Below are positions 16,600-34,295 of a stretch of 34,491 nt of DNA, in pieces. The notes beneath the pieces were generated by a model. The model ran no database searches. It was given only the letters and a program-made list of their open reading frames with translations, and had not been told where the DNA came from. How positions within the stretch are numbered: the stretch's first letter is position 1; each line of letters starts with the position of its first letter. Both the position numbers and the translations under genes were made by a program. This stretch comes from Nanobdellota archaeon (GTDB lineage Archaea; Nanobdellota; Nanobdellia; Woesearchaeales; GW2011-AR4), in assembly GCA_022564635.1 (NCBI GenBank), contig JADFLA010000008.1:1-34491 (forward strand), given 5' to 3'.

Positions 16600-16619
16600 G
16601 CACTGGACATTCACGCGTA
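16600..16619 (+). repeat. 20-base element shared by both LAGLIDADG genes (copy 1)
   Basis: GCACTGGACATTCACGCGTA is identical to 29155-29174. In both places a TATA-like TATTTAAA follows within a few bases and then a LAGLIDADG gene on the same strand. It may be a transcription-factor site carried with the gene or the conserved edge of a mobile unit. Confidence 0.75.
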
Positions 16620-16673
16620 AGCTATTTAAAAATCAATTACATAGTTTCAACCATGGAAAAATATGTGATTTAA

Positions 16674-17680
16674 ATGATTAAAAAATTAAATAATAAAGAA
16701 TCTGAATTAGAATCAGGTATATTCAATCTTTCAGATCTAAAAATAGTAAAGAATATACAATCTGAACAATTTTATTTTGGCCTAGAACAAACTTATAAAT
16801 CTTCATTATTCAAATTAGCATTATCAATTTCAAAAAATATTAAAAATTTAGCTAAAGAAACGAATATTCATTATTTTAATCTTTGGGATTGTATAAAAAG
16901 AACACCAATTTCATTAACAAATCTAATAAAACTATCAAATCATTTAACAAAATATGGTTATTATCAGTTCAGCTTAGAAAATATACAAAAGAATTTAGAA
17001 TACATGAAAGGAGGATTTACATCTGAAAGAATATATCACCCCAATTTCCTATAAATTTTGTCACAAAAAGTGGAATGAGATTTATAGCTCACATATATCA
17101 TGATGGAGGTATAGGTGAGGAGAATAGACAACCAGGTTACACTAATTATTCACTAGAAGAATGCAAGAAATTTCTAGATGACGCTAAAAACATTTTCGGG
17201 GATTTTGATAGAGAGATAAGGCGATATAAAGATGGTACTTATCGTGTTAATCTACCAACAATCATGGGAGATATAATGGTCTCAATAGGTTACACTAAAG
17301 GGGATAAAACTAAAAATAATGCCAAAACATTCGATTTCTTAAATAAAATAAATGATAGAGAACTAATCTCAGAATTTTTAGCTAAGGCATTTAATGACGA
17401 TGGTTGGGTAGGGAAACGGCAAGTTAAATTAATGCAAGTATCCTTAATAAAAAATGGAATTAAAAAGCCATCCAATGTTCTTTTACTAGATAAATTATTT
17501 TTAGAGAAGCTCGGTATAAAAGTTATTGGACCAAGCTTAAATGGCGTATATAAAAATAGGTATGGTAACTGTTCTAAGTATTCGATTAATATTTATTCTA
17601 AAAAACAGTTTAAAATATTTAATAAATATATTAAACTTATTGACTATAAAAGAAAAAAATTAGAAGAAAACATAAATTGA
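16674..17680 (+). pseudogene. LAGLIDADG endonuclease-like gene, frameshifted
   Basis: Frame one (16674-17054) encodes an HTH-like N-terminal region (TYKSSLFKLALSISKNIKNLAKETNIHYFNLWDCIK) and stops after SERIYHPNFL. Frame two is open just across that point and reads HPQFPINFVTKSGMRFIAHIYHDGGI, the usual continuation of such proteins. One extra C in the CCCC run at 17039-17042 would restore a single ORF of about 335 residues. The second part has both dodecapeptide motifs, FIAHIYHDG and LAKAFNDDG, with both acidic catalytic positions kept. So either a young disruption or a homopolymer sequencing error. It stands in no intron or intein; it lies between the Zn-ribbon gene and aEF1B. Confidence 0.8.
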
Positions 17681-29042: not shown

Positions 29043-29091
29043 AATTTCTCTAAAAAACTTATTTAATTTAAATATCTTTGGAATAACTCAA

Positions 29092-29166
29092 AATGTCCAG
29101 TGGTCCGAAACGTCAAAATTTAGACGATATAGACCTTATAAAGTGATATAATTTGCACTGGACATT
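29092..29166. repeat. 11-bp perfect inverted repeat between topA and LAGLIDADG gene 2
   Basis: AATGTCCAGTG at 29092-29102 is the exact reverse complement of CACTGGACATT at 29156-29166. The right arm is the first part of the 20-base element shared with 16600-16619. Read on the minus strand, the left arm sits upstream of the topA TATA box in the same orientation as the right arm sits upstream of the LAGLIDADG TATA box. Confidence 0.7.
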
Positions 29167-29174
29167 CACGCGTA
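29155..29174 (+). repeat. 20-base element shared by both LAGLIDADG genes (copy 2)
   Basis: Identical to 16600-16619, followed at once by the TATA box at 29175-29188. Confidence 0.75.
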
Positions 29175-29188
29175 GGATATTTAAATAA
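29175..29188 (+). promoter_or_regulatory. TATA box of LAGLIDADG gene 2
   Basis: GGATATTTAAATAA; 25 bases past its centre is base 29207, exactly where the stem-loop leader begins. Confidence 0.6.
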
Positions 29189-29206
29189 CAAATTCTGTAA
29201 ATATTG

Positions 29207-29351
29207 GAAAAAGAGAAAACGCAAAACTTCCAAATTAAGATTTTTGGTTTTTTACACAAAAATCTATTACGCAGTTTCGCTTAACATTCTCTTTTTCTAC
29301 ACCTCAATGATTTCTTTTAATTGAAAATAAAAAAGAAATCAAAATGAGGTG
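29207..29351 (+). promoter_or_regulatory. Structured leader RNA with Shine-Dalgarno-masking hairpin
   Basis: First fold, three tiers: 29207-29217 with 29287-29297 (11 bp perfect), 29221-29228 with 29273-29280 (one mismatch), 29238-29246 with 29257-29265 (9 bp perfect). Second fold: 29308-29318 with 29331-29341 (11 bp perfect), extended by CACCTCA 29300-29306 with TGAGGTG 29345-29351 (7 bp perfect). The right arm of the latter contains the GAGGTG Shine-Dalgarno of the ATG at 29358, so the closed hairpin would block translation. With the adjacent TATA box this accounts for nearly all of the 315-base gap between topA and the LAGLIDADG gene. Confidence 0.62.
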
Positions 29352-29357
29352 ATTAAA

Positions 29358-30485
29358 ATGAATTTAAATACACCAAATATTCAATTAAGTTTAGATGACT
29401 TTAGAAGTCAAGATATTTTTGTTTTATTGAGAAGCACATATAAAAATAATTTGCTCAAAAAAGCCATATTTAAAGCAGGCTCTCAAAGTAAATTAGCTAC
29501 AATTATAAAAGAAAATATAGACTATTCAAGATTAAAACAATCTGTCATTTCTTCTTTTGTTCACAAGAAGAACTTAAGGCTAGATTTGATATATTTTCTA
29601 TGCAAATTTACAGATATAAAATTTGATGAAAAACAAACCTTAGGAATAAAAGGTGTTCAAACAAGTAGAATGATTTACAATCCAGAAATAAATATTAGCC
29701 TAACTATAGAATTGGCCCAAATATTAGCTAATTTATACTGTGATGGGTCAATTGAAAAAAATAATTGTTATGTTTCTACATATATAAACGGATGCGAAGA
29801 GCTAATTGATGGATTCAAAAATAATTTTAAACTATGCTTTGGAGATCTAGATTATTACGAGAGATATACTCATGTTAAGAATGTCCGTATACCTTGTTTT
29901 ATTGGAAAACTTTTATATTATAAATTTAGATTATATGAAGATAGAATCTCATCTCAAATAATTCATTCTTCTAGAGATGTCAAAGCCGCATATCTTCAAG
30001 CAGCCTTTGACGATGAAGGGACTATCCACAAGACACATGGGCAAATAAGAATCAAGATGAAACCTAAGTCATATATCAAAGATGTGCAAAAATTAATTCA
30101 AGGATTCGACATTGAAACTTCTAAAGTAATTGAAGAATACGACAAAAGAAATGGAAGGAAATATTATTATTTCTTAATAAGTGGGATGTATAATTCGAAA
30201 AAATTTCATGACGAAATTGGTTTCTTTCATCCTAAAAAGAAAAAAAGATTAATTAAGCACTTAAGAAATATAAAAACTGAAAATTATGGATACAAAGCTA
30301 AAAATATTGTTTTTGACATTCTTAAAAAACATAAATCCTCAACTACAAAACAAATCGCCAAGTTATTGAAAAGAGATAAGAGAGTTATACATCAGCATTT
30401 AACCAACTTAAAAAAGAAAAATCTTGTAAGCTTTACTAAATTAAAAAGAAAATTTGTGTATGAATATTTATGGAAGGTAATTTGA
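29358..30485 (+). CDS. Free-standing LAGLIDADG endonuclease-like protein with HTH regions
   Basis: 375 residues from ATG 29358 (a GTG nine bases earlier overlaps the ribosome site). The N-terminal 100 residues are helical (TYKNNLLKKAIFKAGSQSKL, SRLKQSVISSFVHKK) and match the same region of the 16.7-kb gene. The nuclease core has ILANLYCDG and LQAAFDDEG, both acidic positions present, typical of a single-chain two-motif enzyme. The last 60 residues form a winged helix (SSTTKQIAKLLKRDKRVIHQHLTNLKKKNLVSF). It sits in no intron or intein. It could be a homing endonuclease or, as with WhiA, a derived DNA-binding regulator. Its stop lies 4 bases from the convergent nadC end. Confidence 0.87.
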   Translation: MNLNTPNIQLSLDDFRSQDIFVLLRSTYKNNLLKKAIFKAGSQSKLATIIKENIDYSRLKQSVISSFVHKKNLRLDLIYFLCKFTDIKFDEKQTLGIKGVQTSRMIYNPEINISLTIELAQILANLYCDGSIEKNNCYVSTYINGCEELIDGFKNNFKLCFGDLDYYERYTHVKNVRIPCFIGKLLYYKFRLYEDRISSQIIHSSRDVKAAYLQAAFDDEGTIHKTHGQIRIKMKPKSYIKDVQKLIQGFDIETSKVIEEYDKRNGRKYYYFLISGMYNSKKFHDEIGFFHPKKKKRLIKHLRNIKTENYGYKAKNIVFDILKKHKSSTTKQIAKLLKRDKRVIHQHLTNLKKKNLVSFTKLKRKFVYEYLWKVI

Positions 30486-30488
30486 TTT

Positions 30489-31406
30489 TTATTTTATTTC
30501 CAAAGAAATATTCAATGTTTTTGCAGAATGCGTTAAGATGCCAAGGGAGATAATATCTACTCCGGTCTTAGAATATTCTTTGATATTTTCTTGATTTATC
30601 CCACCAGAAGCCTCAAATAAAATATTTTTATTTTTATTATTTTTTTTAATATTGTTTATTTTAATTACTGTTTTTTTTATCACTGTAGGAGTCATATTAT
30701 CAAACATAATAGCAAAAATTTTATTGGATTTTAAATTGTAAATTGTATCTGCTGCTTTTAATGCTTCTTTTCCATTCTTTACTTCTATCTCGACATATTT
30801 TGTTTTTTTATTCTCGCTTGCAAGAATTATTGCCTTCTTGATATTATCATTCAGTATTTCCAAATGGCTGTCTTTAACAAGTATTGCACTGCTTAAATCC
30901 AGTCTGTGCGTCAAAGCGCCTCCAACGGAAAGAGCTTTTTCATCAAACAGAGGAAACAATGTTTTCCTTGTTCCTGCAATAAAACAATTATTTTTAACCA
31001 ATCTTTTCGTTTCATAAGTTAAAGTTGCTATTCCTCCCATTCTCTGCAATATATTCAGCAAAGTCCTTTCATAGTTCAGTATTTTCCTTGCATTTCCATA
31101 AATTTCAAGGATTTTATCATTATTCTTTATTTTGTCTCCATCTTTTTTATATTTTTTAACTTTAAATTGTTTAAGCAATAACAAAACTTCCTCCATTCCA
31201 GCAATTATTCCATTCTCTCTTGCAATTACAGAAGCCTTTATTTTCTTATTCTTGCTGATCAAAGAATTTGTTGTAATATCTCCTTTACCGACATCTTGCT
31301 TTAATTTATCCTTAAAAAAGTTTTCAACATAACTTTTATACTTTTTATTATTAATATTCAGTTCTTTACTCCTATCCCAAAATTCAAGAACAAGCTTATT
31401 TCTCAT
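30489..31406 (-). CDS. nadC: Nicotinate-nucleotide diphosphorylase (carboxylating)
   Basis: Quinolinate plus PRPP gives nicotinate mononucleotide, CO2 and PPi. Typical QPRTase sequences: DVGKGDITTNSLI, VIARENGIIAGMEEV, the catalytic core NILQRMGGIATLTYETKRLV, AGTRKTLFPLFDEKALSVGGALTHRLDLSSAILVKDSHL, and the phosphate-binding FEASGGINQENIKEYSKTGVDIISLGILTHS. 305 residues, a slightly long version. It starts one base after nadA ends, so the two form an operon. Confidence 0.95.
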   Translation of the reverse strand: MRNKLVLEFWDRSKELNINNKKYKSYVENFFKDKLKQDVGKGDITTNSLISKNKKIKASVIARENGIIAGMEEVLLLLKQFKVKKYKKDGDKIKNNDKILEIYGNARKILNYERTLLNILQRMGGIATLTYETKRLVKNNCFIAGTRKTLFPLFDEKALSVGGALTHRLDLSSAILVKDSHLEILNDNIKKAIILASENKKTKYVEIEVKNGKEALKAADTIYNLKSNKIFAIMFDNMTPTVIKKTVIKINNIKKNNKNKNILFEASGGINQENIKEYSKTGVDIISLGILTHSAKTLNISLEIK

Positions 31407-33224: not shown

Positions 33225-34295
33225 TTATTCATAAGGCAATTTCAATTGAGGTAAGCAATTTACTGCCTCTTTTTTCTTTTCACCAATGATCTTGGTATAA
33301 ATCTCGGTGGTCTTTATTTCTGAGTGCCCTAATAGATCTTTGATAACATAAATATCAGCCCCTTTAGTCAGTGCCATTGTTGCAAATGTATGCCTGGCAC
33401 AATGAAACGTGATGTGTTTCTCAATGCCTGCATTTTTAATCCACTTTTGAAGTTTTTTGTTCTCAAAAGCACTGTACTTTAAGCTGAAAATATTTGAGTT
33501 GGAATCTCCTTTTTTTCCTAATAACCTTTTGGCTGTTTGATTTAGTGGAATGTATAAAATATCCTTATTTGATTTTTTCGGTCGAAACTGGAACCCTTTG
33601 TTTTTGATGTCTGACCAGCAGAGTTTTGCGATATCACTCCACCTTAAACCGGTGTAACATGAGAATAAAAATGCCCTTTTTAGCTCAGGGTTTTCACACT
33701 TTGTTTTCACAACCTTTTTTAGTTCTTTGAATGTTAAGTACTCCCTTTTCGAATTAAGTGTTTCAATAAATTTTACATTAAAAAAAGGATTTCTAACCAA
33801 TATCTGATTATCAATAGCATGCTTAATGATCCAATGAAGTTTATTAAAATAATTAACAGCACTGTTTTGGGACAATTCCTTTAGTAAATATTGTTTGAAA
33901 CCTTCTAGCAGCTGCTGATCAATCTGTATTAAGGTTACCTTACGTCCATCAAGGAACCTCTCAAGATGTATTAACATACTTTGCCAGTTATAAACATGCT
34001 CCTTACTAATCCTTTTTTCCTCGATAACCTTTTTAGCATATGTTACAATATCTACATGCTTTTTAAACTCAGGAGAAAACCCAAAGTTGCCATTGAGGAT
34101 TTCGATTTCTCGATTGGCCCTGATTTGTTCAGCCAACCTTCTAAGTTCTTTATTTTCAAACCGGTCGGAGGAATTCTTTATTGGCTTAATTAATTTGATT
34201 TTCAAGAACTCATAAGATCGCTTACCGTTATTATATATATCTAGGTATAAACTAATACCTTTGTTAACTTTCTTTTCTCTAAGTTTTACGCTCAT
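33225..34295 (-). CDS. Tyrosine recombinase/integrase, Bacteroidota type
   Basis: 356 residues. N-terminal arm-type DNA-binding region (KLREKKVNKGISLYLDIYNNGKR), a SAM-like core-binding domain (about 95-195), and a catalytic domain with Arg in CYTGLRWSDIAKL, the HxxR box HCARHTFAT, and GHSEIKTTEIYTKI supplying the last histidine and tyrosine. This layout, with CARHTFAT and the KTTEIYTKI end, is common in integrases of Bacteroidota transposons and phages. It lies beyond the NAD kinase break, so it probably is not part of the archaeal chromosome, or marks an integrated element. Confidence 0.88.
   Translation of the reverse strand: MSVKLREKKVNKGISLYLDIYNNGKRSYEFLKIKLIKPIKNSSDRFENKELRRLAEQIRANREIEILNGNFGFSPEFKKHVDIVTYAKKVIEEKRISKEHVYNWQSMLIHLERFLDGRKVTLIQIDQQLLEGFKQYLLKELSQNSAVNYFNKLHWIIKHAIDNQILVRNPFFNVKFIETLNSKREYLTFKELKKVVKTKCENPELKRAFLFSCYTGLRWSDIAKLCWSDIKNKGFQFRPKKSNKDILYIPLNQTAKRLLGKKGDSNSNIFSLKYSAFENKKLQKWIKNAGIEKHITFHCARHTFATMALTKGADIYVIKDLLGHSEIKTTEIYTKIIGEKKKEAVNCLPQLKLPYE

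Follow-up and report, generated by a model that had tools for sequence, protein, structure and literature searches.

A candidate structured leader element shared by unrelated mobile nuclease genes of Woesearchaeota

Translational riboswitches and ribosomal-protein leaders place a conserved structured domain upstream of a hairpin that takes up the Shine-Dalgarno sequence, and HEARO/omega RNA is a structured RNA lying beside the gene of an IscB-type mobile nuclease. In T4-like phages, the hiding of ribosome-binding sites by hairpins is an already known principle for homing endonuclease genes, and has been described for I-TevI, I-TevII, I-TevIII, Aeh1 mobE and T4 segB (PMC3014915). Archaeal group I introns and bulge-helix-bulge (BHB) introns occur with LAGLIDADG genes, also in Woesearchaeota (PMC6125680).

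The DNA analysed here (the window) is a 34,491-nucleotide stretch of a Nanobdellota archaeon genome, in which the segment upstream of a LAGLIDADG gene appears, from its sequence, to be one copy of a conserved and previously unlisted regulatory element of Woesearchaeota. The features of the locus are as follows.

29093-29102, minus strand: second, inverted copy of CACTGGACAT, between topA and the leader promoter
29156-29165, plus strand: CACTGGACAT, putative promoter element upstream of the TATA box (from exact genome copies and the family upstream motif)
29178-29185, plus strand: predicted TATA box, TATTTAAA (from sequence and its conserved position relative to the stem)
29207-29297, plus strand: domain 1 (from fold, covariance-model matches and covariation)
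29207-29217 with 29287-29297, plus strand: P1, outer stem of domain 1, 11 perfect pairs
29221-29230 with 29271-29280, plus strand: P2 of domain 1
29231-29237 with 29266-29270, plus strand: conserved internal loop of domain 1, with three A-U pairs inside
29238-29248 with 29254-29265, plus strand: P3 of domain 1
29300-29351, plus strand: domain 2, a hairpin with the Shine-Dalgarno at the end of its 3' arm (from fold and a family test against shuffles)
29346-29351, plus strand: Shine-Dalgarno GAGGTG (from sequence and pairing probability)
29358-30485, plus strand: stand-alone LAGLIDADG_3 endonuclease of 375 aa (Pfam LAGLIDADG_3, E = 1.5e-11)

Folding of the leader (29207-29380) gave -43.5 kcal/mol, against -18.2 +/- 3.0 kcal/mol for 200 dinucleotide shuffles (z = -8.5). 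The first-pass annotation had proposed that an 11-bp perfect outer stem opens a structured leader at the predicted transcription start, and both the stem (29207-29217 with 29287-29297) and its placement were borne out by the fold and the TATA distance. It had also described a second hairpin of 18 paired bases per arm with one bulge, covering the GAGGTG site. The 18 pairs were found (7 between 29300-29306 and 29345-29351, and 11 between 29308-29318 and 29331-29341), as was the coverage of GAGGTG, which was fully paired with a probability of being unpaired of 0.00 in the full leader; the two helices are, however, split by a 1x3 internal loop and not by a single bulge. The centre of the TATA box lies about 25 nt before 29207. 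A TATA box was present in 108 of 134 homologous leaders, at a modal centre-to-stem distance of 24 nt (interquartile range 23-25), and sense promoters were strong, with 93% and 80% of leaders above the score threshold. As this distance is fixed across the homologous leaders, 29207 is a well-supported predicted transcription start, and the element spans the interval from there to the start codon. The latter is likely ATG 29358, the mechanical open reading frame beginning at GTG 29349, within the Shine-Dalgarno. The C-terminal stretch of the encoded protein resembles a winged helix.

As in the T4-type cases, where stand-alone genes are included (PMC3014915), the window contains a homing-type endonuclease gene whose Shine-Dalgarno is paired in a stable hairpin. 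The T4-type structures are nevertheless short hairpins of phage genes, whereas here a conserved domain of about 91 nt comes first, from the predicted transcription start, and the Woesearchaeota element is common to unrelated nucleases and precedes archaeal chromosomal genes. Nearly invariant internal loops in a domain preceding the Shine-Dalgarno hairpin are shared with riboswitches and ribosomal-protein leaders, and compensatory structure was found; unlike in those systems, there was no Rfam match, no visible alternative pairing between the domains and no suggestion of a ligand, and a wobble preference on the mRNA strand was likewise not seen. The likeness to HEARO/omega RNA lies in a structured RNA encoded beside a mobile nuclease gene, but the nucleases here are LAGLIDADG or PD-(D/E)XK proteins and not IscB or TnpB, and no IscB/TnpB-type family ranked in the top 25 Pfam matches by frequency for the 131 downstream open reading frames. 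Archaeal introns likewise combine LAGLIDADG genes with structured RNA; the genes here, however, are stand-alone and intergenic, Rfam gave no group I match, and bulge-helix-bulge motifs were absent from the leader fold. Rfam 15 at gathering score returned no match in the window, and a permissive Rfam search of eight loci found nothing at the leader, the only hit being a tRNA elsewhere in one locus. Searches of mainly open-access literature on riboswitches of DPANN archaea and on the noncoding RNA and homing endonucleases of Woesearchaeota turned up no account of the element, nor of a conserved first domain that unrelated nucleases share or of such a leader in archaea.

A covariance model of domain 1 (R1) found matches in 73 of 353 genomes of the same order (Woesearchaeota), with up to 9 copies each; loci L067-L164 were fetched and rescored. 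A plain DNA search placed homologues in 62 of 99 relatives at E <= 0.01, a tally that takes in weak, short AT-rich matches. The window's own genome carries a second copy of the element (at C30), before another LAGLIDADG gene, and the separate upstream motif at several further places. In samples from the phylum and class, every match but one fell inside the same order, suggesting that the element is essentially order-restricted; named records with it comprised Woesearchaeota, other Nanoarchaeia-type genomes and one short contig labelled Micrarchaeota. Among viral contigs, a strict pattern gave no matches, and a loose pattern gave 78 contigs, none of which was confirmed by model R3. The sole copy outside the order (L249) immediately follows the apparent 3' end of a tRNA gene, with a LAGLIDADG gene downstream.

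Pfam LAGLIDADG_3 was matched by 91 of the 131 open reading frames downstream of element copies, other LAGLIDADG-type families by smaller numbers, HNH_repeat by 6 and 23S_rRNA_IVP by 2. Further frames without a LAGLIDADG profile were PD-(D/E)XK-like by eye, or short or cut. In five genomes searched, LAGLIDADG_3 matches in very long frames (about 850-1360 aa), which are probably inteins, were without the leader, whereas in genome G017 it preceded all three short-frame matches; this comparison of long and short frames was made by hand. At two loci, L086 and L101, the gene behind the leader encodes a four-helix protein of the 23S rRNA intervening-sequence type and not a nuclease.

Compensatory changes among homologues, which the first-pass annotation had proposed as a check, were found at 26 of 32 pairs of domain 1 across 95 copies. 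In this alignment, which is biased toward the structure because it was fitted to it, the 299 compensatory cells compare with 87.8 +/- 7.4 in shuffles, none of 500 shuffles reaching the observed number. A set of 30 copies gave compensatory changes at 11 of 33 pairs (46 cells against 19.6 in shuffles), and, counted on the tree, P1 (its inner 10 pairs), P2 and P3 together had 82 paired double changes. The internal loop between P2 and P3, with AAAU on one side and UUA on the other, is nearly invariant, and the stems of domain 1 have been replaced wholesale in a GC-rich host family. As the internal-loop sequences are conserved, a thermometer, one of the modes of control first suggested, is unlikely. 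Three paralogues of one genome (G340; L097, L098 and L109) differ in P2 by compensated changes, which fit a folded strand better than a double-stranded DNA operator read by one host protein, and the latter was rejected.

By a narrow balance of judgement, we infer that the mRNA of a mobile nuclease has this segment as its 5' untranslated leader, with a host factor-sensing domain 1 and a ribosome-limiting domain 2. The first base of domain 1 would be the transcription start, and the promoter may carry an operator common to host DNA-replication genes. Domain 1, modelled as a long, imperfectly paired hairpin containing two conserved internal loops, would bind in the mRNA a host-encoded factor (protein or metabolite), the same one for every copy in that host, and domain 2, by overlapping the Shine-Dalgarno, would limit ribosome access and repress translation. 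Together these features would hold nuclease synthesis at a low level and couple it to the state of the host.

A serious rival to this mRNA leader, though an unlikely one, is that the other strand or single-stranded DNA is what matters, with domain 1 either forming a bottom-strand hairpin to which a protein of the host or of a mobile element binds, or giving an antisense RNA that base-pairs with the mRNA of the nuclease. A wobble preference on the transcribed strand was absent in domain 1, where single-step departures from Watson-Crick pairing were A-C in 51 cases and G-U in 25, an excess of about 2:1 that reads as G-U on the other strand. With scoring equal for both mismatch types, G-U and A-C numbered 12 and 29 in P1, 21 and 78 in P2, and 55 and 43 in domain 2. 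One conserved P2 position was A-C in 61 of 95 copies and A-U in 29, which amounts to an alternation of G-U with A-U on the opposite strand. That strand of domain 1 was also the more stable in 127 of 134 copies (-36.6 versus -29.5 kcal/mol, or 7 kcal/mol better on average); no strand difference in folding stability was seen for domain 2. The opposite bias would be expected of an RNA helix under selection in the mRNA; both the mismatch ratio and the stability thus count against the mRNA reading, and make selection of domain 1 pairing on the mRNA strand uncertain. However, the per-base frequency of T>C changes in unpaired columns was about 1.6 times that of A>G (C>T and G>A being about equal), so that mutation bias explains part of the A-C excess, though only part. 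Antisense TATA boxes scored no better than shuffles, which counts against the rival, and an antisense gene with its own TATA box was rejected on the same result. Since the fixed sense TATA-to-stem distance and the position before the start codon tie the element to the nuclease transcript, the mRNA leader was kept as the best reading.

The contribution of domain 2 to such a leader varied over the family. A helix of at least 7 bp over the Shine-Dalgarno was present in 65% of 134 leaders versus 29% of shuffles, and in 74% of leaders outside the GC-rich family versus 30% inside it, where the Shine-Dalgarno is often left open. The mean probability of the Shine-Dalgarno being unpaired was only slightly lower than in shuffles (0.31 versus 0.35, P = 0.004), and the share of leaders pairing three or more Shine-Dalgarno bases showed no excess (75% versus 79% in shuffles). 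It therefore appears that the hairpin is a real, positioned feature in most copies, from which strong sequestration does not follow for every member; the burial of the Shine-Dalgarno in the original description holds in the window and is not universal. Domain 2 is reduced to TCACCT...AGGTGA in two copies (L121 and L126), and in two others that lack P1 (L038 and L159) the Shine-Dalgarno complement brackets the conserved core, their minimum-energy folds being weak. The 3' strand of P1 showed no excess complementarity to the Shine-Dalgarno, and a switch between the two was rejected; as no alternative pairing of domain 1 with the Shine-Dalgarno was found, no switch path is visible.

This modest pairing across the family, together with a stem that starts at the predicted 5' end, would suit a leader that only stabilises the mRNA, in which the 5'-terminal stem blocks exonuclease, domain 2 is a modest initiation hairpin and nothing is sensed. 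A plain blocking stem needs no particular loops, however, and the AAAU and UUA loops show almost no variation although the stems turn over; stabilisation alone was accordingly judged distinctly unlikely.

Leader sequence tracked the host family and not the nuclease. The median identity of domain 1 within a host family was 0.76 before related proteins and 0.79 before unrelated ones, and between families it was 0.69 and 0.68, respectively. The common reader of the element should therefore be a host factor or ligand. Autoregulation, also raised at the outset, in which the encoded nuclease would bind its own leader and shut off its translation, has precedents in that some homing endonucleases regulate their own genes, I-TevI being called a transcriptional autorepressor in the title of a reference listed in PMC3014915. 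As leader similarity follows host lineage and not the protein, and near-identical leaders precede unrelated folds (LAGLIDADG, PD-(D/E)XK/HNH-repeat and 23S-IVP), this explanation was not supported and is very improbable. At L136, in a genome of the window's family, the leader is 85% similar to the one at L143 in the GC-rich family and the proteins are related, which looks like a recent transfer of the whole cassette. GC-rich-type leader-nuclease cassettes were seen at both L136 and L142 in window-family genomes, where recent transfer is likely.

Most improbable of all is transcription attenuation, in which the U-rich 3' strand of P1 would be an archaeal terminator, for although TTCTCTTTTTC occurs in this strand in most copies, the U-tract is not conserved in the GC-rich family, where P1 ends in GTCCTCCTCGCC and the rest of the element is retained, and the terminator was rejected.

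Upstream of the TATA box, the leaders share a motif, CACTGGACA being found within 110 nt upstream in 104 of 134. In the window's own genome, CACTGGACAT has 24 exact copies against 1 for the reversed control, with window sites at 16601, 29093 and 29156, and G017, from another genus, has 14 sites. Downstream of the own-genome copies lie MCM, a Cas4/Dna2-like nuclease, RadC, an integrase, an RNase_H_2 protein and LAGLIDADG genes; in G017 the genes behind it are MCM, RNase_H_2, a Cas4-like nuclease and a homologous small protein, and further ribonucleotide reductase, a DNA methylase and several nucleases. As sites, placed upstream of TATA boxes, precede both groups, the nucleases share a promoter element with replication genes, and the genes behind CACTGGACAT form a candidate DNA-replication regulon of Woesearchaeota. 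The same promoter element was seen before own-genome putative nuclease genes (L203, L206 and L207; window 16600-16700) with short leaders that lack domain 1 and whose first bases appear, by eye, complementary to the Shine-Dalgarno region (GTGATTT).

A bolder version of the mRNA-leader reading, possible if doubtful, is that a control code specific to the host serves many selfish nucleases of unrelated kinds: domain 1 would represent a new DPANN aptamer class that senses a protein or metabolite of the host and controls the translation of each mobile nuclease carrying it, and the promoter element would have been taken from the host replication regulon, such that cutting would occur only when a repair template is present. 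If the leader reading is true, the element would constitute a large structured-leader family in the DPANN archaea, a mostly uncultivated group. The findings suggest a single regulatory module, tied to the host rather than to the enzyme, which unrelated homing endonucleases either acquired by convergence or pass among themselves. This would offer a testable case of selfish nucleases that tame themselves or are tamed by their host, and the promoter element in common with replication genes would make a concrete prediction on timing.

The inverted CACTGGACAT copy near topA probably came with the nuclease cassette, as CACTGGACAT was not visible in the aligned topA upstream regions of three same-genus genomes (G001, G004 and G005). 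In G005, topA and nadC adjoin without a nuclease between them. The topA-nadC interval (window 29043-30490; L227, L229 and L230) thus holds a nuclease cassette in the window and nothing in G005, and a gene resembling nadX lies between topA and nadC in G001 and G004. Elsewhere in the window, 33228-34295 on the minus strand encodes a tyrosine recombinase with Arm-DNA-bind_5 and Phage_int_SAM_5 domains, an integrase type associated with Bacteroidetes mobile elements.
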